IMG/VR virus record: IMGVR_UViG_3300013006_000009
Coordinates: 1-32,850 of that record
Length of the DNA: 32,850 nt
Direction: 5' to 3' (one strand)
Origin: a virus
Shown: positions 251-32,850 of the stretch, piece after piece
Position numbering within the stretch: the first letter of the stretch is position 1
How the letters are laid out: the number at the start of each line of letters is the position of its first letter
Translations under genes and position numbers: made by a program
Notes under the pieces: generated by a model
What the model was told of the DNA's origin: nothing
Database searches by the model: none
What the model saw: the letters and a program-made list of their open reading frames with translations, nothing else

Positions 251-1927
251 TTATTTTGTGTTGTTGATAATTGCTTTGGCTAGGCGTAGGGAAATTGAAC
301 GGCCTGCAGCCATAGGCATACCAATTGGTTGTAACTCAACTTCAGGATCTTCAACTTCAATAGTTGGTGTTAAAGTATCTAGTCCAAGCAAAACCTCAAG
401 CATACTTTTGCCTTCCTCAAGGCTATCGTAAGATTCAGAAACTTTTTCAAGAATTGAATTAATAACAAGTGTTGATTCGCCATCTAGGGCGCGGCCCTCT
501 TTGATTGCATCCATTGCGTTTTGTAGTGCCTCTCTTGCTTCAACAGTTGTTGTTGGATATGCAGGATAGGTAACAACTGAAACATCCCCATCTGCTAGTG
601 AAACTTCAGTAAGTGTGCGAACTGAACGATCCTCATTCCACTTTTGGCGAATGACTCTGAACGCAAAACTCATCTGATCTACATCACCGCGTTCAACTAA
701 CTTATACAAATCACGGCCTTCAGTTGTATCTGCAATCTCTGCATCCATAAATAGGCCACGCTCATCTTCACTGAGTGTGAGAGTTCCATTCTTAGTGCGA
801 GCCAATGGCAAGCCTTCGTGGTTAATGAGTAGGCGTACATCCGGTGTTTCGCTCAAAGTCTTGCGAAATGCGCCGGGCGCAATTGTTTCTTTAAAAGGTA
901 GGGGAACACTTGCATCATTGAATACTGCGGCATAACCGCGTAAGCGCATAGTTCCATCTTCAGCTTGGCGTGCCTCAACATCTTGAACTGTAAATGTACG
1001 GCGTTCGATTTCTTTCATCTTGCTCCTTGAGTTTGCATCAGTAATACTGGATGGATTCATTGTTTCAATTTCAAGAGATTGATAAGCCTCTCTTGCGCTA
1101 TCCCCATTATCAATTGCAAGTTTTACTGTTTTTGTTTCCATAATTTTTTCAGCCGTTGCTTTTTTATATTCAGGGCTAGCCATATCTGTATTATTTAATG
1201 TTAAAGCATTATATTGAACACCTGCTGCACGCAAATCTGTTGCAGTTTTACTGCGTTCACTTTCAAGGCGGCCAGTAACAATATGAATATAATAATCTTT
1301 TCCAAGTTCATTAACATAATTAATGTTTTTTTGGATGCCTTCACTGCCATTTAAAACAGTTCCATCAACATCAACAATAACAACAGTATCTGATGAACTA
1401 TTGCGTTGATTCATTTCTAAATCAATAGAATCAATTTTTCTTTGCGCCCAATTTTGCGCTCTATCACTAAAATCTGAATCTCCACCCCATAATAACCAGG
1501 CAACTAATCCAGCTCCAGGATATTGAGAATTTGAACTATCTTTATTTTGTGGAGCATCACCATCTACTTTATGACGGGCAAACCAGGGTGCCATCTTGCG
1601 AACTTTATTTTCTGTAATGCGCCCTGCAGCCATATCGCGAGCCTCGCGTTTTGTGCCTTCAGTTAGGCCATCACCACCAAAACCTTCATCAAGATATTTC
1701 AGGCCACGCTTGGCATTTTCACGAATGAATGAAGGAACGCTTAAATCAACTGCTCGAACCTCGCCCATTGGATCAATGCCTTCACTGATTGATACGGCAA
1801 CCATCTGATCTACTGCATCTTGCTTATTATCGTGGCAACCAATTGTTGTGTATGAACCATCAGATTCTTGCTTAACAGTTGCCCATCCAGCGCAATCACC
1901 CTGTTTATCAGAAATAAAATAGGGCAT
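251..1927 (-). CDS. HAD-like domain fused to HK97-type prohead maturation protease
   Basis: The 558-residue protein has four parts. Residues 1-50 form a short domain (DCAGWATVK, GCHDNKQDA) that I recall at the head of actinophage maturation proteases. Residues 60-170 (GDGLTEGTKREARDMAAG, WFARHK, GAGLVAWLLWGGD) are a recurrent phage domain of unknown role. Residues 182-290 look like a HAD phosphatase: motif I DVDGT at 186-190, a TGR at 218-220, a lysine in EYKKATAEK and an acidic motif IDNGDSAREA. Residues 305-460 are the HK97-family protease with the expected His370 (INHEG) and Ser420 (MSFAF). The protease cleaves the capsid delta domain during head maturation. The start ATG overlaps the portal stop (TAATG). 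An internal ATG at 1018 (Met304) has its own AAGGAG site and would give a free 255-residue protease. Protease assignment is strong; HAD activity is inferred from motifs. Confidence 0.9.
   Translation of the reverse strand: MPYFISDKQGDCAGWATVKQESDGSYTTIGCHDNKQDAVDQMVAVSISEGIDPMGEVRAVDLSVPSFIRENAKRGLKYLDEGFGGDGLTEGTKREARDMAAGRITENKVRKMAPWFARHKVDGDAPQNKDSSNSQYPGAGLVAWLLWGGDSDFSDRAQNWAQRKIDSIDLEMNQRNSSSDTVVIVDVDGTVLNGSEGIQKNINYVNELGKDYYIHIVTGRLESERSKTATDLRAAGVQYNALTLNNTDMASPEYKKATAEKIMETKTVKLAIDNGDSAREAYQSLEIETMNPSSITDANSRSKMKEIERRTFTVQDVEARQAEDGTMRLRGYAAVFNDASVPLPFKETIAPGAFRKTLSETPDVRLLINHEGLPLARTKNGTLTLSEDERGLFMDAEIADTTEGRDLYKLVERGDVDQMSFAFRVIRQKWNEDRSVRTLTEVSLADGDVSVVTYPAYPTTTVEAREALQNAMDAIKEGRALDGESTLVINSILEKVSESYDSLEEGKSMLEVLLGLDTLTPTIEVEDPEVELQPIGMPMAAGRSISLRLAKAIINNTK
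1016..1032 (-). promoter_or_regulatory. Internal ribosome-binding site and ATG inside the protease fusion
   Basis: On the minus strand the bases read AAGGAGCAAGATG, a near-ideal Shine-Dalgarno with 4-base spacing. They sit exactly where a stand-alone HK97-type protease would begin (MKEIERRTFTVQDVEAR). This suggests two translation products from one frame. Confidence 0.65.
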
Positions 1928-8268: not shown

Positions 8269-10392
8269 TTATCCCACTACCAATTGGGTAACTATTGCAT
8301 CAGTTAGTGAAAAATGCTCTTTACCTAACTCTGTTAAGTAAAGGATAAAGGATCTTTCATTACCCTTATTCTCAATCCAACCGCCGGCCAACAAGTCGCT
8401 TAGGCGCTCGCCAATGGCCTCTTTGGAACCACTGATGCCATCTTGGACAATACGGCGGTTTGCCCCTGGATGGTTATGAATGAACTCGGCAATCTCTTTG
8501 AGTTTCTTCAGCTCTTTATTAGATTCGTACTCATCCTCTGCCAATGGCACCGCAATCACATATTGCATCTGCGCCTTTGTGGAATCAATGGTGATAATCG
8601 CAGCCTCTTGGGTGCGGTCTGATTTTCTCCACATACCTGAAATCTTGCGGATGAATCCAGGGCGGTCTTTGGTAACTCTCATTGTGAGGCTACCGATTCG
8701 CCCAGGCGATAGCGCCTCAAGTGGCTCGACTAGGTAGGCAGCGCCATCAATCGTGGCCAACTTGGCCTGCCCGCCAATGGCAAACCGCCCGCGTGTTTCT
8801 GCATTTTTCGTGATGTGATCAATCAACACAACGGCAGTGCCACTGGCAGTGGCAACAGTGCGTGGGAAAATACGCATCCAACGGGTAATGGCATCATTAT
8901 CTTTGGTTTCACCGCCCCACATAGTGAGAGATTCAGTAACGCCATCAATAATGATGAGAGTGGCGCTATTTGGCTCAAGGATAGATTGCCAATAAGGATC
9001 ATCAACATCGCGTGGACCATCAGGCCGGATATAAGTGAAGTATTGTAAAAGGTTGGCTCTGCTCACCCCTAGCGCCTTGAGGCGGTTCACAATATCAATG
9101 GCATCTGATTCAAAATCAATATAGATAACTTTTTTATCATTCTTTAGCATCTCGGCAGATGCAATTTGAGCTACCCAAGATTTGCCTGATTCGGATTCTC
9201 CATAAATTGAGTGAACGCGCCCTGTATAGATAAGGCCGTGGCCATCAGTGCGGTTAAGAATCGTGGCAACAGGTGCCTGGAACAAACCATCATAATAATC
9301 TTTGAGTTCGATAGGTTTCCAACTTGATTCTTGCTCTTCATCATTATCTGAAGCTGAAACAGTAGGTTGACTAGGAGCATTAAGTGTATTTGTGGGCATC
9401 AGTGCGTTGCTAAAATCAAAAGAGCCAAGTGCCTGTTGGCCGTAGCCCTGCGAGCGCAAATCACGCGCAGCCTCTTTGAAATCGCCGTTATGAAATATAA
9501 CTGCGTAAGCGCCAAACTTATCGTAGGAACGCTCTGCATCAAATATGGTAGATGTTGAGAAAACTCGCAATTTATCGGTATTTTGGTAATTGGTAGTTGC
9601 AGAAACACCGAAATCTTTGCCGGGGCGTGTCCAAGTGGTTTTTTCGGCGCTTTGATAAGCAATTTTCCATCCAAGAGGCTCTAGCAACTCGCGCCAAGTA
9701 GTTTTGGCGTTAAAATCATCACCAGGTGAAGTAGCACCTTCAACCTTTTGTGCTACATCGTAAGTAACTGAATCTGCCTTTGGCATTTCATCAAACATTG
9801 CAAAAATAGTGTGAAGAGCGTTTCTTTCTTCAAGGGTTAGTGTTGGAATTGCCTCAATTGATCCGCGTAGCAACTCCCAAGAGCCACCTGAAGGGTGAAC
9901 TTGGCCTGAAGATGGCGCAGTGATAACAAAACCGCCTTCACCGCGAGTTTCAGCGAAAACATCAACTCCACCATTCTCACCGGGCTTGCGTGCGAGTTTG
10001 GTATTGCCTGGAACTGCGCCCGTGAGGCGATAAAGCCAATGAAGGCCACCTGAAGGTGTTATTTCAACATATCCAGCGTTAATTCGCTCCCATAACTCGC
10101 CCATATTTGATGCGTTAGCGATTTCTGCAATTTCTAAGTGCATTTTGGCGCTTACGGCTCGCCCCTCAAGTTCAAGCATCTCTAAATTGCCTGAAATGGC
10201 ACCGCAAATGACCCCAACGCCTTCAGAATCAGATTTAAACCAACTAATTAGCTCATCAGGGGTTGGCATTTGATGTTGGTACTCTTTCCAACTGCTCAAA
10301 CCAGGGCGCTTTGATCCATCTGAAGCAACCGGCACCGCAACAATGCCTGCGCTCGCAAATCTTAGTGCGGTAGTTAAGATTTCATTGCTCAT
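8269..10392 (-). CDS. Primase-polymerase / RepA-like helicase fusion
   Basis: The 707-residue replication protein has an N-terminal bifunctional primase-polymerase domain (about 1-185). Seen there are VPVASDGSKRPGLSSWKEY, VICGAISGNLEMLELEG, SGGLHWLYR and VDVFAETRGEGGFVITAPS. The metal-binding acidic pair appears as ELE (74-76) rather than DxD, as I recall for actinophage members. A RecA-like ATPase follows: Walker A GESESGKS (398-405) and Walker B LIIIDG (479-484), with DHITKN as sensor region. The C-terminus (625-690) looks like a winged helix. It should prime and unwind phage DNA. Its ATG overlaps the methyltransferase C-part stop (ATGA). Confidence 0.92.
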   Translation of the reverse strand: MSNEILTTALRFASAGIVAVPVASDGSKRPGLSSWKEYQHQMPTPDELISWFKSDSEGVGVICGAISGNLEMLELEGRAVSAKMHLEIAEIANASNMGELWERINAGYVEITPSGGLHWLYRLTGAVPGNTKLARKPGENGGVDVFAETRGEGGFVITAPSSGQVHPSGGSWELLRGSIEAIPTLTLEERNALHTIFAMFDEMPKADSVTYDVAQKVEGATSPGDDFNAKTTWRELLEPLGWKIAYQSAEKTTWTRPGKDFGVSATTNYQNTDKLRVFSTSTIFDAERSYDKFGAYAVIFHNGDFKEAARDLRSQGYGQQALGSFDFSNALMPTNTLNAPSQPTVSASDNDEEQESSWKPIELKDYYDGLFQAPVATILNRTDGHGLIYTGRVHSIYGESESGKSWVAQIASAEMLKNDKKVIYIDFESDAIDIVNRLKALGVSRANLLQYFTYIRPDGPRDVDDPYWQSILEPNSATLIIIDGVTESLTMWGGETKDNDAITRWMRIFPRTVATASGTAVVLIDHITKNAETRGRFAIGGQAKLATIDGAAYLVEPLEALSPGRIGSLTMRVTKDRPGFIRKISGMWRKSDRTQEAAIITIDSTKAQMQYVIAVPLAEDEYESNKELKKLKEIAEFIHNHPGANRRIVQDGISGSKEAIGERLSDLLAGGWIENKGNERSFILYLTELGKEHFSLTDAIVTQLVVG

Positions 10393-11117
10393 TCGGCAAC
10401 CATTGCGTTAACAATCCAACTTACAACAGGAACTGCAACCGCGTTGCCCATTTGCTTATATCTACTACTATCTGCCTGGCCATCGGTCCATCCATCAGGA
10501 AATCCTTGAAGGCGCTCGCACTCTGTTGGCGTTAAACGGCGCACCACTGATAAATCCATTGTGCCGCCGATGTTTGAATTGGTAGCACTACTTGAACGAA
10601 TGGTTTGGGCAGTTTCACCAATCGAAGCGTTATAGAAATCAACGGCAACTACGCCTGGAACCTGTTGCCTATCAAGAGTGTATGCCGGGGCATTTTCATC
10701 ACCAATGCCTGTTCCGTTTTGGTGTTTTTCAATCTCTCTTGCATCATCAATTGGAAAAATGCTTGATTCTAAAAAAGAGGGCGGTTGTTGACTAGCTTTA
10801 AGTGTTGGCGATACATTCTCAAAGGTGTTTGCGTTACTCCCAAATTGTGTATCAAAAGCAATAGTTTCTTTCGGATCACTGTTATCAAAAATCATTGGTA
10901 CATTTCCCCCGCCCGTTCCATATCTTGAAATAACTGTTGGCACAATGCCATCTACATACACACGCACATCATTAACGCGTGTGCCATCAATAATAAGCAC
11001 TGTTGCAAATGCTTCCCCGTTATTATCCATTGCGTTCAATGTAGGCACCACGCCTTCATCAATCCAAGATTCATAATCTTCAACATTTTGCGCCCGCTTA
11101 GTTTTCGTGAACCACAT
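10389..11117 (-). CDS. C5-cytosine DNA methyltransferase, C-terminal part (motifs IX-X)
   Basis: The 242-residue frame carries the end of a C5-cytosine methyltransferase. It has motif IX (RRLTPTECERLQGFPDGW), motif X (RYKQMGNAVAVPVVSWI) and, before them, a variable target-recognition region. It overlaps the N-terminal part by 20 bases in the +1 frame. The ATG at 11117 has no clear ribosome-binding site. It may therefore be reached by frameshift, be separated by a one-base indel, or be a true second subunit as in split enzymes such as M.AquI. It cannot methylate alone because the catalytic Cys and cofactor motifs are in the other frame. Confidence 0.85.
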   Translation of the reverse strand: MWFTKTKRAQNVEDYESWIDEGVVPTLNAMDNNGEAFATVLIIDGTRVNDVRVYVDGIVPTVISRYGTGGGNVPMIFDNSDPKETIAFDTQFGSNANTFENVSPTLKASQQPPSFLESSIFPIDDAREIEKHQNGTGIGDENAPAYTLDRQQVPGVVAVDFYNASIGETAQTIRSSSATNSNIGGTMDLSVVRRLTPTECERLQGFPDGWTDGQADSSRYKQMGNAVAVPVVSWIVNAMVAE

Positions 11118-11838
11118 TTTGGATAATCGCTTTGTTATCGGTTAAATCATCAACTGCAATTCCTTTGTAATCTCTAGCGCATAAAGTTCCACTTATTGCG
11201 TTGCCACCTGCTCCAAGGCCGTTTGCAATTGTTGAGGAAGAACCTTTCCTCTTCGATTTGCCCGCCTCAAGATACCCTGCGCGGCCTTGGCAGATAGAGA
11301 GTATTTCTTCAGGTGATTGCCCTTTGTTTCCAAGATTTCCGACAATGAACACTCTACGCCTGCGTTGTGGTACTCCAAAGTATTGAGCATCAAGTACCCG
11401 CCAGGCGATGCTATACCCGCGTTCGACCAACGCTTCAAGAACAACGGCCATATCTCTGCCCCCATTTGAGGAAAGTAAACCAGGCACATTTTCGAGGATA
11501 AAGTTTTGCGCTCTTGTTTCGTCAAGGATTCTACAGATTTCCCAGAATAATCCACTACGCGATCCATCCAACCCTGCTCTTTTTCCAGCCACGGATAAAT
11601 CTTGACAAGGAAAGCCACCCGTGATGATTCCATTTGTAGGTTCAAATCCTGCTGCTCTAAGTTGTTCACCTGTTACCCCCGTAATATCGCCAAAAATAGT
11701 TGAATCAGGAAAATGCCGGCGTAGCACATCCTGCGCTTTTTTATCAATCTCAACAGATGCAACTACTTTCACACCTGCGTTTTGTAGTGCTAAATCAAAG
11801 CCACCAACACCTGCAAATAAACTGACTGCAGTTTTCAT
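11098..11838 (-). CDS. C5-cytosine DNA methyltransferase, N-terminal part (motifs I-VIII)
   Basis: The 246-residue frame starts at ATG 11838, where GGGGGAGCAA gives a ribosome-binding site and the upstream stop overlaps (ATGA). It has motif I FAGVGGFDLAL for S-adenosylmethionine, motif IV GGFPCQDLS with catalytic Cys78, motif VI ENV (116-118) and motif VIII QRRRRVFIVG. It then stops at VVHEN. Phage enzymes of this type usually protect phage DNA from host restriction. The rest of the enzyme is in the next frame at 10389-11117; deleting a single base near 11100 would fuse both. Active together only if frameshifted or assembled as two chains. Confidence 0.9.
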   Translation of the reverse strand: MKTAVSLFAGVGGFDLALQNAGVKVVASVEIDKKAQDVLRRHFPDSTIFGDITGVTGEQLRAAGFEPTNGIITGGFPCQDLSVAGKRAGLDGSRSGLFWEICRILDETRAQNFILENVPGLLSSNGGRDMAVVLEALVERGYSIAWRVLDAQYFGVPQRRRRVFIVGNLGNKGQSPEEILSICQGRAGYLEAGKSKRKGSSSTIANGLGAGGNAISGTLCARDYKGIAVDDLTDNKAIIQNVVHEN

Positions 11839-11996
11839 TTGCTCCCCCATCCCGTTCCTTTGAAGTGTGCAGGTACTGCAGTAAATGATTTTTTGGCTAA
11901 CTTGCCACACTCACATAAAGCTAAGTGTTTATCATTCATCTTGAATTCGCGTTCAAATTCAATACCGCACTCGCACTTGAATTGGTAAATCGGCAC
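11835..11996 (-). CDS. FmdB-type zinc ribbon protein
   Basis: A 53-residue protein starting at GTG 11996-11994, which gives the family-typical first residues MPIYQFKCECG and is preceded by CGGGGGAGCA. The zinc ribbon has CEC and CEC pairs (KCECGIEFE, LCECGKLA), matching FmdB-type putative regulators. The end (HFKGTGWGSK) is also typical of the family. A longer reading frame upstream exists but runs through a tRNA-like sequence and lacks a start signal. The stop overlaps the methyltransferase ATG. Confidence 0.82.
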   Translation of the reverse strand: MPIYQFKCECGIEFEREFKMNDKHLALCECGKLAKKSFTAVPAHFKGTGWGSK

Positions 11997-12615: not shown

Positions 12616-12720
12616 TTAGTTGTTTTCTAACTCTGTTGGTGGATTGGATTCAATCCATTCTTTATTTATATCGCTGATTGTTTTCCAGGGTTGGCAATCG
12701 CATCCATCACGGCTGCACAT
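12616..12720 (-). CDS. Tiny cysteine-containing protein (34 aa)
   Basis: The frame starts MCSRDGCDCQPWKTISDI and ends ELENN. Its ATG overlaps the stop of the exonuclease gene (TAATG), which suggests coupled translation. Three cysteines in the first nine residues could bind a metal. No family is recognised. It fills the gap between exonuclease and SSB-like genes and is supported mainly by this fit. Confidence 0.5.
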   Translation of the reverse strand: MCSRDGCDCQPWKTISDINKEWIESNPPTELENN

Positions 12721-13463
12721 TATTGTTCACCAGTATCACCATTGCAAGCAATGGATAGATCAGTGCTAAATGGGCGGTAGTACGGGCAATACATACACAT
12801 TCTAGATGGTGTTGCAGGTATTAACGGCCACATTTTAGGATTTTCTTCAACATCAATGGTTGATAGCAATTCATAAACTGAATCTAATCGAGCCAAAGCT
12901 GAAAGTGCTGCGCTTTCATCATAATCAAATAACTCAATGTGCATATCTGTTATTTGGCCACCGGTAGGCAAGAAAATAAGGCCAACCTTATTCACCACCG
13001 CGCCCTGTTGGGCTTTTCCGTAGCCGTACAACTGCACTTGGGTAATCTGTTGAGATGTAGCGCCTTCACTGCGCTTGGCTTTTACACCTGCAGGTGAAGT
13101 GGTTTTCCAATCTAGCACATACCCTTTTTCAATATCAAATAAATCAACTGTTCCCGATAGGTTTGCCCTAATCTGAACCTTTTGCTCTACTTCATACTTT
13201 TCAGGGAACTTGCTAAAAATTTCCTCTAAGAATGAGTGGATGGCGGTACCAACATTGGCTGCCCAGGAACCGCCACCCGACTCATTAGCCTTATCCCAAT
13301 CCAATAACTTGTAAGCCAATCGGCGTACACACTCTTGCCCAACCTCGCTAGGTCCAATATAAACCTGTTGAGATCGTGGCGTGTAGCGTGAAGCCTCGGT
13401 AATGATATTGGTGATTTCATTCGCCAATTCTTTACTTGGACTGTTCAAAGGTGCAAAAGTCAT
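12720..13463 (-). CDS. Cas4/RecB-like PD-(D/E)XK exonuclease
   Basis: The 247-residue protein has the full nuclease core: His76 (GTAIHSFLE), Asp107 (SGTVDLFD), Asp118 and Lys120 (VLDWKTTS), and the Q-motif QVQLYGYG. Cys45 near the N-terminus and Cys223, Cys226 and Cys240 at the C-terminus are positioned for a 4Fe-4S cluster as in Cas4 and AddB-type nucleases. It probably resects DNA ends for phage recombination. There is no CRISPR array or other cas gene nearby, so it is a replication/recombination enzyme here. Its stop overlaps the tiny gene downstream. Confidence 0.9.
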   Translation of the reverse strand: MTFAPLNSPSKELANEITNIITEASRYTPRSQQVYIGPSEVGQECVRRLAYKLLDWDKANESGGGSWAANVGTAIHSFLEEIFSKFPEKYEVEQKVQIRANLSGTVDLFDIEKGYVLDWKTTSPAGVKAKRSEGATSQQITQVQLYGYGKAQQGAVVNKVGLIFLPTGGQITDMHIELFDYDESAALSALARLDSVYELLSTIDVEENPKMWPLIPATPSRMCMYCPYYRPFSTDLSIACNGDTGEQ

Positions 13464-13795: not shown

Positions 13796-14182
13796 TTAGT
13801 AATAGTTTTTGCGTTTAAAGTGATCCCAGGCACCACACGGCCCTGCAGATCCATACTTTCTGCCTATGTAGGCAAGTGCTGCAATCGTTTGAGCAACAGT
13901 AGAGTTACTGCGCTTCATTCCTAGATTGCGATAAGTACCATCCAATAATTGCCCAACACCTGATGCTGAACTTTCCGGATTATCCTTATCTTGCCAGGCG
14001 CTTTCTTTGCTCATAAGAGCGTTAAAGCACTTGAACTGTTTAGTTGTAAGTAACTCGCGGGCAACCTCTTTTGGATTCACTTGCATCAAATGCGGGCGCT
14101 CTTTGTAGATTACTAACGCAGGATTTGCAGGTTCAGCCGCGATGGTTTGCACCACCAATGAAGTTGCAATGCTTACGCTCAC
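13796..14182 (-). CDS. Secreted lysozyme-like transglycosylase
   Basis: A 128-residue frame whose C-terminal 85 residues look like a small soluble lytic transglycosylase/lysozyme-like domain. Glu60 in NALMSKESAWQ is the likely catalytic acid, followed by SSASGVGQLLDGTYRNLGM and a Tyr-rich helix. The N-terminus (SIATSLVVQTIAAEPA) is the end of a signal peptide. The annotated GTG start lacks positive charges. The same frame continues upstream with KRLIKRLALIV, ideal for a signal peptide, but contains only ATT or ATC as possible starts before a stop. It probably acts on host peptidoglycan after export. Its place among replication genes, far from the endolysin, is unusual. Confidence 0.7.
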   Translation of the reverse strand: MSVSIATSLVVQTIAAEPANPALVIYKERPHLMQVNPKEVARELLTTKQFKCFNALMSKESAWQDKDNPESSASGVGQLLDGTYRNLGMKRSNSTVAQTIAALAYIGRKYGSAGPCGAWDHFKRKNYY

Positions 14183-14649
14183 GATGAGTGCAAGCCTTTT
14201 GATGAGTCTTTTATCTGTTGGTGTAATGGTTTAGCTCCTTGTTCAGTTGTAGCAAACTTTATTAATACACGCCGGATATAACCGCCTGATGTATTAAGTT
14301 GTGCCACAATTTCGTTTACAGGCTTTCCCTTTAAGTGCAATTTGATAATTGAAAGTGCCATCCCTTTGAAGGCATAATCTTTATCTTTCACTTTGGCATC
14401 TCTTTCGGCAGGTGTTGACCCGCCCCAAATGCCGTGAGGAATCTGTTTTTCTAGTGCGTACTCCAAACACTCCATTCTGTGAATACAACTCGCGCATATC
14501 GCTTTGAGTTGGAGCAGTCTTTCTGCCTCTTGCTTTCGGTTATCAGGAAAGAATAAATCCTTATCTTCAACCTCGGCACATTTTGCTTGTGGAAATTTCG
14601 GGAGATCAACAAAGAAATCAAGTGTTTTCAATGTTTCTCTTCCAGCCAT
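14179..14649 (-). CDS. WhiB-family regulator with C-terminal helix-turn-helix
   Basis: This 156-residue protein starts at ATG 14649 (MAGRETLKTLDFF) rather than the TTG 24 bases upstream. Cys24, Cys52, Cys55 and Cys61 follow the WhiB 4Fe-4S pattern (C...CxxCx5C), and the family's turn GIWGGST follows. WhiB proteins are found in actinobacteria and their phages and bind the principal sigma factor. The C-terminal part (LKGKPVNEIVAQLNTSGGYI) looks like an added helix-turn-helix, making it longer than ordinary WhiB proteins of about 85-100 residues. Likely role: redirecting host RNA polymerase. Its end overlaps the lysozyme-like gene. Confidence 0.88.
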   Translation of the reverse strand: MAGRETLKTLDFFVDLPKFPQAKCAEVEDKDLFFPDNRKQEAERLLQLKAICASCIHRMECLEYALEKQIPHGIWGGSTPAERDAKVKDKDYAFKGMALSIIKLHLKGKPVNEIVAQLNTSGGYIRRVLIKFATTEQGAKPLHQQIKDSSKGLHSS

Positions 14650-14978
14650 TGTGTTAAATCCTGGATTACCCAAGATTTTTCAATCCCAGCGTTTCGGCGC
14701 TTGAGAATGATGTAATGCAATGGCACCTCGGCTAAACCGCGAGCCTTTGCATAATTTTCTGCCTCAATTTCAGCTTCACGCCAAAACTCAGGCAAACTTA
14801 TTGTTTTTCTATTCTTCAGTTCAAGAATGTAATGCTTCCCACCGACAATTGCGACTAAATCGCCTTCATCATTCTTTCCGGCCTTTACCAAACGCTCACA
14901 TAAGGCACCTGCACCCCGTAACCAACGCATAACATCGGTTTCAAATTGTGCGCCTTTGCGCCCGTTTGGATTCGCCAC
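14628..14978 (-). CDS. Holliday-junction resolvase-like nuclease
   Basis: A 116-residue PD-(D/E)XK nuclease resembling archaeal/phage Hjc resolvases: GRKGAQFETDVMRWLR with Glu13, EGDLVAIVGGKHYILELKNRK with Asp40, Glu53 and Lys55, then a helix and strand ending in YIILKRR. It would cut four-way junctions formed in replication or before packaging. The GTG start overlaps the previous stop (TAGTG), and its end overlaps the WhiB gene by 22 bases. Confidence 0.85.
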   Translation of the reverse strand: MANPNGRKGAQFETDVMRWLRGAGALCERLVKAGKNDEGDLVAIVGGKHYILELKNRKTISLPEFWREAEIEAENYAKARGLAEVPLHYIILKRRNAGIEKSWVIQDLTQWLEEKH

Positions 14979-15331
14979 TACTCGACTACTCGCAGTTTGG
15001 CTACTTTGGTACTCATCTCATCGGCCTTAAAAATACGGCGCTTTTTGATGGAAACAATAATATCTTGGCAAAGATTGTAAGCCTCATCTTCAGACATTGA
15101 AGCAATAAGAATGGCCATTTCGGGCATCTCATCCCTAGCCTGATCAAGTTGCTCAACATAACCTTCAGCCTTATATGAAGTGCGGTTTGCAGCCTGAAGT
15201 TCATCCAGGCAACTCAAATCAACTTGGCCAACTACATCTTCAACCAAATCAACGCAGGCATCACGCTCTTCAAGATAAAGGCAAATCTTGCCTGAATCAG
15301 TAGTATGGACTGAAAACAAAGGATCACGCAT
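14978..15331 (-). CDS. Acidic protein of unknown function (117 aa)
   Basis: The protein begins MRDPLFSVHTTDSGKICLYL. It has a strongly acidic beta-rich first third (EERDACVDLVEDVVGQVDLS) and a helical middle (YVEQLDQARDEM, EDEAYNLCQDIIVSIKKR). No catalytic motif or family is recognised. It is coupled to the resolvase downstream (TAGTG) and overlaps the small membrane gene upstream by 8 bases. Confidence 0.65.
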   Translation of the reverse strand: MRDPLFSVHTTDSGKICLYLEERDACVDLVEDVVGQVDLSCLDELQAANRTSYKAEGYVEQLDQARDEMPEMAILIASMSEDEAYNLCQDIIVSIKKRRIFKADEMSTKVAKLRVVE

Positions 15332-15449
15332 CTTTTTTCACCCAAGGATTACGGATTTCATTATCAAGAAAGTTATCTTTCTCTATAATCATCCACATAA
15401 TAAATAGGAATGAGCTAACAATTGCTATTGCTATTAGAAATAGTTTCAT
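15324..15449 (-). CDS. Single-pass membrane protein (41 aa)
   Basis: The frame starts at ATG 15449-15447 with GGAAAGG five bases upstream. It reads MKLFLIAIAIVSSFLFIMWM, one transmembrane helix, followed by a charged tail ending WVKKDA. Its stop overlaps the next ATG. No family is recognised. The good ribosome-binding site and overlap make it a likely real gene. Confidence 0.62.
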   Translation of the reverse strand: MKLFLIAIAIVSSFLFIMWMIIEKDNFLDNEIRNPWVKKDA

Positions 15450-15512: not shown

Positions 15513-16061
15513 CTAGGCTTGTTGAATCTCTATCTGAAAAGGGGCGCAGGTGTTTATGTCGTATTTGGCAGATATTTGCAGGGCCTCAATGAATTCGCTC
15601 TGCGCCCAATCAGTTTGTGCCAGGTTAGGCAGGGTGCCGGCGAGATAACCCAAGGCATAAGGTGAGCCTGATCCGATTCCATAAAGATTATCAATGCTTT
15701 GGCTTATGTCGAGTGAATCCCCAATTTCAAAAATATTGCCTGCAAAAGCAATCAAAAAGCTAAAACTCACACCCTCTTTTTCAAAATCGTATGAGTTGGC
15801 CTTAAAGATAGCCACAATACTAGGGATGATTTTCTTGCCCATAAACTTAACAGGATCGGTGCCATCATAAAGGGGCGGTTTCCAGTTATACATAAGAATA
15901 TCGCCTGGCCTGCAATCGCCGGACACGGCAAAGAGATATTTGCCGATTTTCACGATTTTGGGAGTGCTAGGGGAAAGGGTGCGCTTATCGCCATCGGTGA
16001 TTTGAGAATCAGCGCCCAGGATGGCGAAATCAGCGCCCTGGAAGGCAATAATGGTAGTCAT
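15513..16061 (-). CDS. Proteasome beta / HslV-like N-terminal-nucleophile hydrolase
   Basis: A 182-residue protein starting MTTIIAFQG, so that removal of Met exposes a catalytic threonine without a propeptide. Counted from that Thr, Asp17 (ILGADSQ) and Lys34 (TPKIVKIG) match the proteasome triad. The later GIGSGSPYALGYLAG contains the family Ser near 129, and KYDINT gives the Asp near 166. This is the core of 20S proteasome beta, HslV and Anbu peptidases. I see no ATPase partner, so it may self-assemble or use host regulators. The TTG at 16091 is an alternative start; neither has a clear Shine-Dalgarno. It is the first gene of the leftward operon. Confidence 0.85.
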   Translation of the reverse strand: MTTIIAFQGADFAILGADSQITDGDKRTLSPSTPKIVKIGKYLFAVSGDCRPGDILMYNWKPPLYDGTDPVKFMGKKIIPSIVAIFKANSYDFEKEGVSFSFLIAFAGNIFEIGDSLDISQSIDNLYGIGSGSPYALGYLAGTLPNLAQTDWAQSEFIEALQISAKYDINTCAPFQIEIQQA

Positions 16062-16100
16062 TGGCCGATTGTAGGGGTTTAGCCTAGACAATGGCGAAAA

Positions 16101-16125
16101 CCCGCCTACTTCCCCTTTAGGCGGG
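16101..16125 (-). terminator. GC-rich hairpin in the leader of the leftward operon
   Basis: CCCGCCTA (16101-16108) pairs with TAGGCGGG (16118-16125) over a 9-base loop. On the minus strand it is followed by TTTTCG. It lies between the candidate leftward promoter and the first gene, so it looks like a leader attenuator or a weak intrinsic terminator. Confidence 0.5.
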
Positions 16126-16194: not shown

Positions 16195-16221
16195 TTTACC
16201 TGTATATACAGGTGCTAGATT
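16195..16221 (+). promoter_or_regulatory. Candidate rightward early promoter
   Basis: TTTACC (16195-16200) and TAGATT (16216-16221) could form -35 and -10 boxes for the nine-gene cassette, although the 15-base spacing is short. The palindrome at 16199-16212 lies between them. Confidence 0.3.
16199..16212. promoter_or_regulatory. Perfect 14-bp palindrome, candidate operator
   Basis: CCTGTATATACAGG reads the same on both strands. It is in the only divergent intergenic region, between the rightward cassette and the leftward promoter, which fits a dimeric repressor site. The ribbon-helix-helix protein encoded at 17864-17995 is one possible binder; this pairing is inference. Confidence 0.5.
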
Positions 16222-28658: not shown

Positions 28659-29048
28659 TTAGGATTTTGTGATTGTACCACTTATAGGCCAAGTAACAGA
28701 TGCAGTTGCAAGTTCGCCAACTGCTCCATTAAGAGGTGTCCACTCTGAAACCAACGCTGAAAAACTGTATGCAGGTGTTTGGCCTGCTACTGGGCGAACT
28801 GTAATTGAAACTGCAGTTCCTAGTGTTGGGTAAATTGTTGCTTCAAGTGCGCTTGCTGCGTAATCCTGGTTAAATTCAAATGAAACAGAATTATCTGCTA
28901 GGCCAGCAACTCTTGTACGGGCAGTGTTGCCAAACGCAGTGGTTTCAACAACATCATAAGTAGATCCTAAAGTTACGCTTGTTACATAACTTGAAATATC
29001 TGTTGTGCCAAATGTAACTGCAACATTTGTTAATACAATACGGGCCAT
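28659..29048 (-). CDS. Tail tube protein, copy 2
   Basis: A 129-residue protein paralogous to the next one. Both start MAR(I/L)VLTN, share ETTAFG and ARTRV, and have nearly identical last 36 residues (SFSALVSEWTPLNGAVGEL, ASVTWPISG). Size, beta-rich pattern and position between tail terminator and chaperone fit the major tail protein that stacks in rings to form the tube. It starts directly after the stop of copy 1. One copy may be the tube and the other a minor or decorated ring; the sequence does not say which. Confidence 0.8.
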   Translation of the reverse strand: MARIVLTNVAVTFGTTDISSYVTSVTLGSTYDVVETTAFGNTARTRVAGLADNSVSFEFNQDYAASALEATIYPTLGTAVSITVRPVAGQTPAYSFSALVSEWTPLNGAVGELATASVTWPISGTITKS

Positions 29049-29468
29049 TTATGAAACCGCCTTTGTAATTGCTCCTGAGATTGGCCAAGTAACAGATGCA
29101 GTAGCAAGTTCACCAACTGCGCCGTTAAGAGGTGTCCATTCTGAAACCAATGCTGAGAATGTGTATGAAGGGTTATCTGCAGCAGTTGTAGCGCCGTTTG
29201 GCTTTACAACAACAGTTGTTACTGTTCCAACAAGTGATGAGCCTGCTGCGTTGATAGTTGCTTCAACTGAACTTGCTGCATAATCCTGATGAAATTCAAG
29301 AGCAACTGAATTATCTGCAAGGCCACCAACGCGTGTGCGAGCTGATGAACCAAATGCAGTTGTTTCAATAACATCATCAGTTGTTGTTAGGGTAACACTG
29401 CCAATGTGATCAGAAAGGTTAACCCCATTAATTGTGATATACGCGTTTGTTAGGACTAAGCGGGCCAT
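29049..29468 (-). CDS. Tail tube protein, copy 1
   Basis: A 139-residue paralogue of the gene that follows. It is ten residues longer because of an insertion around residues 76-98 (SLVGTVTTVVVKPNGATT). The N-terminal halves differ widely (YITINGVNLSDHIG against VAVTFGTTDISSYV), whereas the last 36 residues and the DNA behind them are almost the same. Upstream lies a small gene whose stop touches this ATG. Major tail protein function is inferred from position and fold pattern. Confidence 0.8.
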   Translation of the reverse strand: MARLVLTNAYITINGVNLSDHIGSVTLTTTDDVIETTAFGSSARTRVGGLADNSVALEFHQDYAASSVEATINAAGSSLVGTVTTVVVKPNGATTAADNPSYTFSALVSEWTPLNGAVGELATASVTWPISGAITKAVS

Positions 29469-31511: not shown

Positions 31512-32850
31512 TTAGAAAGTTGGTGCTACCAAACCGGTGCCTGAAATGATTGAGGCAGCGAGTGGGTAACGCTCTGCTGAGAAGGCACCAAAGCCGTAAA
31601 CAACAGACTTAACAGTGAGTGAACCAGCGCCTGTTGCATCAAATGAAAGTGCAAAAGGTGATCCTGGTTGTTCCCAAAGGTGCATTTCTGGTGCTGCAAC
31701 GCAGTAGATTTCATCCTGGTTTGTTGCTGCGCCAAGGTTTGTAAGCACATTTGCATCAGTTACAACTGGAAGGCCAAGGATTGTGTAACCTGAGTTTCCG
31801 TATCCTGGAAGTCCAGCGCCTGCTGCTGCTGCGTTCATTGGTCCGTTTGAATTTGGAACTGCCAATGGGCGGCCTGTTGTGTCGCTTGAAGCAAGAATTG
31901 CTGCAAGGCGGCGTGGATGCATAATCCAGTGTGTTGGAGCGATGAAAACATTGCTCTCAACTTTCTGGTAAGCATCTGCCAACTTTGAGTAAAGAAGTGC
32001 AGTTGTAGGTGTTGTTGCAGTGTAAGTAACTGTGTTTCCACCTGATGCGCGGATTCCCTTGAACTGGCCGTTGTTGCCTGTTCCGTTTAGAACCTGGTAA
32101 TCCACTGTTGTGTGCCAAGAGCGAATAAGGTCTGCTACAACGAATGTATCAATACCTGTTCCGCGCTCAATAGCCTGCTTTGATAGATCCTGCTGGCCGG
32201 CAATTGTGCGTACCGGAATTGTGAGCAGAGTATCATCTGAATCAGTGTTAGAAATATCAGTGTTTTGTGTTTCCTGAACTGCAGTAGATGTTCCAGTAGT
32301 CATACGGGAAATGTTTAGAGTCATTCCCGCTGCTGGAAGTGCGTGCTTTGATGTTGCGTAATCTGCAGTTGGGCGGCCTGCGCGTGCATAAGGTGCAGCC
32401 AGATCAACCAAATACTGAGGGATTACAAGGCCAGCAAAGTTATCAGTTGCAACCGAACGGCGCTCGACTGATTCTTCCTTTGTGTGGCGTGCTAGGCGCT
32501 CTTGCGCTGAGTAATCGCCACGAATCTGCGCTGCGTAAACATCCTTAACGAATGAAACTTCAGCTTCAGGTGTGTATGTGCGTGCTTCGCGTGTAACTGT
32601 TGCTCCACCAACGCGAGGTGCTACAACTGCTGCGACTGAAGCGCGAACTTCAGCAGCCTTTGCATCTGCAGTAGCCTGTGTTGAGAACTTTTCAATCTTT
32701 GCATCAAGTGCGCGTGCCTCTTCAACAAGAGCATCAACCTTTTCGGTTTCCTCTGCAGTAAGATCGGTGCGCTCTTCGGCAGCAACTGCCTCTAGAACTG
32801 CATCCATTTCAACCTTAACTGCATCACGGCGCTCAAGAGCAATATCAAGA
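31512..32850 (-). CDS. Major capsid protein (HK97 fold), main part
   Basis: This is the capsid gene without its first codons, which lie at 1-137 because the contig is circular; the 123-base overlap repeats part of it. The 450-residue whole has a charged coiled-coil delta domain (about 1-125), a likely cleavage zone near ERRSVATDNFAGLV, and the HK97 core. Core features include DYATSKHALPAAGMT, a strand-rich E-loop, ESNVFIAPTHWIMHPRRLAAI, GYTILGLPVVTD and an end YGFGAFSAERYPLAASI. It builds the icosahedral shell. The apparent start at 32807 (MDAVLEA) is internal. Confidence 0.95.
   Translation of the reverse strand, partial: LDIALERRDAVKVEMDAVLEAVAAEERTDLTAEETEKVDALVEEARALDAKIEKFSTQATADAKAAEVRASVAAVVAPRVGGATVTREARTYTPEAEVSFVKDVYAAQIRGDYSAQERLARHTKEESVERRSVATDNFAGLVIPQYLVDLAAPYARAGRPTADYATSKHALPAAGMTLNISRMTTGTSTAVQETQNTDISNTDSDDTLLTIPVRTIAGQQDLSKQAIERGTGIDTFVVADLIRSWHTTVDYQVLNGTGNNGQFKGIRASGGNTVTYTATTPTTALLYSKLADAYQKVESNVFIAPTHWIMHPRRLAAILASSDTTGRPLAVPNSNGPMNAAAAGAGLPGYGNSGYTILGLPVVTDANVLTNLGAATNQDEIYCVAAPEMHLWEQPGSPFALSFDATGAGSLTVKSVVYGFGAFSAERYPLAASIISGTGLVAPTF
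32728..32850. repeat. Terminal direct repeat, right copy
   Basis: Identical to 1-123. Joining the ends through this overlap restores the capsid reading frame with no gap, which supports a complete circular assembly. Confidence 0.93.

Follow-up and report, generated by a model that had tools for sequence, protein, structure and literature searches.

The window analysed here, a stretch of 32,850 nt of viral DNA (IMG/VR record IMGVR_UViG_3300013006_000009), carries on its minus strand, at 15513..16061, a gene for a 182-residue threonine peptidase of the proteasome (Ntn) fold. Profile matches, an AlphaFold2 model and conserved residues together indicate a genuine and functional-looking enzyme. 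The explanation that we favour, with a probability of about one half, is that of a self-assembling, ATP-independent threonine peptidase of the proteasome/HslV/BPH fold that is used in host takeover. An earlier note had identified the product as a proteasome-type subunit with an N-terminal nucleophile; this identification is right, while the partners and roles that it suggested are mostly unsupported.

The reading frame extends from an ATG start to a TAG stop. Counting the initial Met, its translation contains Thr2, Asp18, Lys35, Gly48, the motif GSGSPYALG at residues 130-138 and Asp168, which become Thr1, Asp17, Lys34, Gly47 and Asp167 in mature numbering after Met removal; all the residues listed in the earlier note (Thr1, Asp17, Lys34, GSGSPYALG and a later Asp) are among them. 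The protein scores 29.1 bits against PF00227, above the Pfam cut-off of 22.4, and possesses the features that define this fold (an N-terminal Thr/Ser nucleophile, Asp17, Lys33 and an oxyanion Gly). It is the sole PF00227 gene of the whole record, and it also matches PHROG_1040 ('peptidase HslV family') over residues 1-179 (E=2.2e-25). Among 902 unrelated ORFs of 150 aa or more from the same loci, not one has the pattern T2/D18/K34-35, which is thus not a product of chance.

An AlphaFold2 model built from 28 viral sequences (mean pLDDT 91.7, pTM 0.87) likewise places the protein within the proteasome fold, in agreement with the earlier assignment. The best PDB matches found by Foldseek were BPH and HslV, and a second aligner gave Z values of 18.7 for yeast beta5, 17.9 for BPH, whose monomer fold is similar, and 17.7 for HslV; these values hardly differ, and the fold therefore gives the superfamily and not the subfamily; fold comparison alone cannot place the peptidase among connectase, Anbu and BPH. 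Residue 2 of the model superposes on Thr1 (chain residue 1) of the yeast proteasome beta5 subunit, and helices H1 (50-59) and H2 (70-88) are both present. The span from Gly47 to the GSG motif is 82, compared with 75 in HslV and 88 in BPH, which is consistent with a pore loop longer than that of HslV.

Hundreds of lake phages carry related genes. Thirty phage records were matched by tblastn, at no more than 33% identity, and a search of IMG/VR recovered at least 372 contigs encoding the peptidase (the window clade), together with at least 199 contigs of a sister clade (~29-35% identical to it); 80 loci were kept from each clade. T2, D18, K35 and G48 are invariant in 173 of 173 viral relatives, down to ~30% identity. 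Some of these loci were retrieved by patterns that include Asp18 or Thr2; as the patterns cover different parts of the protein, no single residue was forced throughout. Where dS was measurable, dN/dS between the peptidase and its closest relatives was 0.04-0.11. We know of no phage homologue with a measured activity, which would leave room for a binding or decoy ring whose catalysis is vestigial; the retention of the catalytic Thr, Asp and Lys and of the oxyanion Gly in every relative makes this very improbable, and loss of the Thr would also have spoken against the earlier identification.

Strong constraint also applies to surface motifs specific to the phage clades (W60, P62, P63, T171, P174, Q180). 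This could point to a sequence-specific processing enzyme or ligase resembling connectase, which would act on one phage or host target, perhaps as a monomer or an unusual oligomer. The fold permits such a role, as the monomeric ligase connectase demonstrates (PMC8665760), and BPH, the best-studied analogue, is inert on all standard substrates (PMC5777263). Subunit interfaces would, however, predict the same constraint on the motifs, and the S3-S4 insertion that defines connectase does not appear in our model, so that we consider this reading improbable.

The phage gene does not appear to have been captured recently from an actinobacterial host, as a search of 396 Actinomycetota genomes, run without a positive control, returned no relative at E<=1e-5. 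Only distant actinobacterial homologues were found, in Micromonospora and allies. Elsewhere among the relatives, Aeromonas phage 2L372X has two adjacent genes, gp211 and gp001 (L028:3001-3552 and the next gene), both annotated as HslV-family peptidases, and a heteromeric ring formed by this pair is possible.

The gene is preceded by a -10 box, TACAAT (16068..16073, minus strand), which ends 6 nt before the ATG and predicts a leaderless mRNA, since at this spacing transcription would begin with the A of the start codon. In 86 of 87 window-clade relatives, the start codon is preceded at a distance of 6-8 nt by a TANNNT box (against a mean of 9 and a maximum of 17 in shuffled sequences), and none of the 87 carries a Shine-Dalgarno core. 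Among 24 leftward genes checked, the peptidase gene alone has a box at the 6-nt spacing, one other having a box at 4 nt. The signals thus imply a leaderless peptidase transcript made from its own promoter. An upstream in-frame TTG (16091), which would add an N-terminal extension, was rejected because the -10 box falls inside that stretch; moreover, in 26 of the 87 relatives no in-frame start occurs upstream. The absence of a propeptide and the position at the head of a leftward operon, both proposed in the earlier note, are therefore upheld.

Directly downstream lies an ORF of ~41 aa with a single TM segment (MKLFLIAIAIVSSFLFIMWMII..., 15324..15449, minus strand), which had been overlooked between the peptidase and the following gene; a hydrophobic ORF recurs after the peptidase in most relatives looked at, with divergent sequences. 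The next gene (14978..15331, minus strand) encodes a 117-aa protein of unknown function that is conserved in 61 of 80 clade loci. Its AlphaFold2 model is of low confidence (pLDDT 68, pTM 0.50), too weak to support this neighbour as a partner of the peptidase. The remainder of the operon, also on the minus strand, encodes a RusA-like Holliday junction resolvase (14628..14978, PHROG_244), a WhiB-type regulator that marks an actinobacterial host (14179..14673, PHROG_472), a small transglycosylase-like protein (13796..14182, PHROG_12661) and a Cas4-like exonuclease (12720..13463, PHROG_1674), and the order of the peptidase with WhiB, RusA and the exonuclease is widely kept among relatives. From this content we infer that the peptidase is expressed early. 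PADLOC gave no match for it, which is weak evidence either way on a role in anti-defence.

Two further elements lie in this region. A perfect 12-bp palindrome, CTGTATATACAG (16200..16211), occupies the intergenic region between the divergent operons and recurs ~140-165 bp upstream of the peptidase gene in 27 relatives, which makes it a candidate operator. Just upstream of the leaderless promoter, an inverted repeat, CCCGCCTA/TAGGCGGG, at 16101-16125 is followed by TTTT on the minus strand; it was not reported by a terminator scan, and it may insulate the operon.

In the mechanism that we favour, a host methionine aminopeptidase would remove Met1 and so expose Thr1, as suggested by the MT start and by the precedent of BPH, which loses its Met1, binds epoxomicin at Thr1 and has no known unfoldase (PMC5777263). 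Asp17 and Lys34, both observed, would activate Thr1, and Gly47 would provide the oxyanion hole. By analogy with the rest of the family, the subunits probably form a homo-oligomeric ring, single or double, with the active sites facing inward, and the ring would open through a loop longer than that of HslV. Unfolded or specific protein substrates would then be cut without a dedicated unfoldase, as has been proposed for BPH. Since its gene opens the WhiB/RusA/exonuclease operon, behind a leaderless promoter of its own, the peptidase most likely acts early, and would remove or process host or phage proteins during takeover.

In one alternative, the peptidase chamber would attach to a host AAA+ unfoldase (ClpX, ClpC/ClpC1 or Mpa/ARC) and redirect it to substrates chosen by the phage. 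Consistent with the earlier note, no AAA_2 (Clp/HslU-type) or classical AAA ATPase was found in the record, and HslV itself requires such a partner. Although the HslU profile had some match in all 292 Actinomycetota genomes, only one of the 292 scored over the cut-off, and the weaker matches are presumably related Clp ATPases; a partnership with HslU, one form of the ATPase hijacking suggested earlier, is therefore unlikely. The single exception (G151; L116, L231) also has an HslV gene upstream and a 20S beta subunit, which may reflect a rare combination or assembly contamination. The 20S beta subunit exceeded the cut-off in 121 of the 292 genomes, none of them of 1.6 Mb or less, the size range of streamlined freshwater actinobacteria, so that the proteasomal ATPase may also be missing from streamlined hosts. 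Docking is further disfavoured by the 2021 survey, in which no new homologue had a co-occurring AAA+ partner (PMC8665760). We regard docking on a host unfoldase as possible, if on the doubtful side.

The record probably represents a complete genome of ~32.7 kb, as an exact 123-bp direct repeat is present at its ends (1-123 and 32728-32850). It encodes portal, terminase, capsid and tail proteins together with an HK97-type head maturation protease (251..1927, minus strand, PHROG_80), which is separate from the peptidase. The capsid matches Mycobacterium phages only, the terminase is nearest to that of Pontimonas phage phiPsal1, and a WhiB gene has been used as a marker for freshwater actinophages (PMC9878933). 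Taken together, these genes suggest that the host probably belongs to the freshwater actinobacteria. Elsewhere in the genome, a C5-cytosine DNA methyltransferase is divided between two overlapping minus-strand ORFs (10389-11117 and 11098-11910), one with the N-terminal catalytic part and the other with the C-terminal part, which may be a natural split, a frameshift or an assembly error; and two tandem tail-protein genes (28659-29048 and 29049-29468, minus strand) both match the major tail protein PHROG_4574.

A different genomic setting was observed in the sister clade, where a gap of 13-18 nt separates the peptidase gene from the portal gene before it in 79 of 80 loci (L145-L224). The peptidase gene also shares a 4-base ATGA overlap with the next gene, an 84-aa ORF, in 46 of the 46 loci with a call for that ORF. 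The position after the portal gene is the usual slot of the head protease. PHROG_80 was not found in the three sister-clade genomes checked, and in OX376641.1 (L228:17155-17691), a sequenced member that also has WhiB, Pfam and PHROG searches found no other protease domain in the head cluster. These observations would fit a protease of virion assembly, with head or internal virion proteins as its targets. Against this, the HK97-type head protease is present in the window phage and in three of its clade relatives, which rules out the peptidase as head protease of the window phage, and the window-clade gene stands in a different operon under its own promoter. In the sister clade itself, the scaffold and capsid genes lie ~8 kb beyond the peptidase, and capsids of the family concerned, Phage_capsid_3, may form without proteolysis. 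As a general explanation, virion assembly is accordingly quite improbable; a virion role confined to the sister clade and not extending to the window phage is possible, not likely. The combined scheme, in which freshwater actinophages use the enzyme for early takeover in the window clade and as a morphogenesis protease in the sister clade, whose gene is fixed between the portal gene and further virion genes downstream, appears unlikely as well. If true, the sister-clade role would be, to our knowledge, the first case of a proteasome-fold enzyme at work in virion assembly.

Function has been established for none of the new phage proteasome homologues of the 2021 survey, and literature searches on phage-encoded proteasomes, on VpV262 with the proteasome and on head maturation protease with HslV yielded nothing relevant. 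With its large size, strong conservation, small genomes and defined promoter and operon, the window clade makes it possible to test whether a phage brings its own ATP-independent proteasome, and for which substrate. A second and sharply different role that can be tested is suggested by the sister clade with its portal-adjacent gene.

As regards the known families, a maximum-likelihood tree recovered the window clade firmly (support 100/99) and joined it with moderate support (90/84) to other phage homologues, in a group apart from HslV, PrcB and the actinobacterial homologues; the tree contains several long branches, and its deeper joins are unsure. The peptidase shares with HslV (ClpQ) the fold, the Thr1/Asp17/Lys33 set and the GSG-PYAL motif, but the Gly-to-GSG span is shorter in HslV and no HslU partner gene is present in the phage. 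Its scores against the HslV equivalogs are far below the cut-offs (TIGR03692, 19.0 bits against 157.75; NF003964, 20.9 bits against 137) and it falls outside HslV in the tree, so that the label HslV-type does not hold in the strict sense. PrcB likewise has the same fold and catalytic set; the peptidase, however, has neither a propeptide nor an alpha subunit. A 20S beta identity was rejected, given the lack of a match to TIGR03690 (bacterial 20S beta) at E values up to 1, the missing propeptide, the single PF00227 gene and the position in the tree. The idea that it replaces host beta rings finds no evidence, and the peptidase does not group with actinobacterial PrcB.

Connectases are distinguished by a two-helix insertion between S3 and S4 and by the absence of the first helix pair; the peptidase model, with H1 and H2 in place and no such insertion, is not of this type. 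BPH (Thiobacillus, Cupriavidus; PDB 5ovs, 5ovt, 5ovu), whose hallmark is a tetradecameric double ring with an acidic cavity, is the best Foldseek match and resembles the peptidase in its lack of a propeptide, a pore loop longer than that of HslV, the lack of a known unfoldase and, as predicted for the peptidase, a Thr1 exposed by Met removal. Nevertheless, BPH is bacterial rather than phage-borne, is only ~20% identical, has a longer acidic loop and lies separately in the tree.

The closest parallels are phage-borne. Members of PHROG_1040, from phages of Geobacillus (E3), Vibrio, Aeromonas and Arthrobacter, Actinomycetia phage DSL-LC01 and others, match the peptidase over its full length, and those members that were aligned share its catalytic residues, although the matching annotated phage records are no more than 33% identical to it. 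Many have a Cys after Thr1 (MTC) where the window clade has MTT, and several lie near nucleotide-metabolism genes in larger genomes, whereas the window clade lies near WhiB in a 33-kb siphophage. The group I homologues PPH and AAH (Fuchs, Alva and Lupas 2021, PMC8665760) are also phage-borne; neither a function nor an AAA+ partner is known for them, and they have in common with the peptidase a compact proteasome-like subunit with helices H1-H4 and no propeptide. PPH is excluded by its length (~140 aa, against 182) and by its lack of helix H2. AAH, which was compared by description only, was not found in Actinobacteria-specific phages in that survey (PMC8665760), in contrast to the window clade with its WhiB phages, and the distant actinobacterial homologues (L104, L107, L113), whether AAH or not, branch apart from the phage group. 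The peptidase is therefore of a kind already described in phages (PPH, AAH; PHROG_1040). What appears to be new, judging from the genomes compared, is a large actinophage clade in which it stands behind a predicted leaderless promoter at the head of a WhiB/RusA/exonuclease operon, and which may supply the members from Actinobacteria phages that were missing from the 2021 survey.
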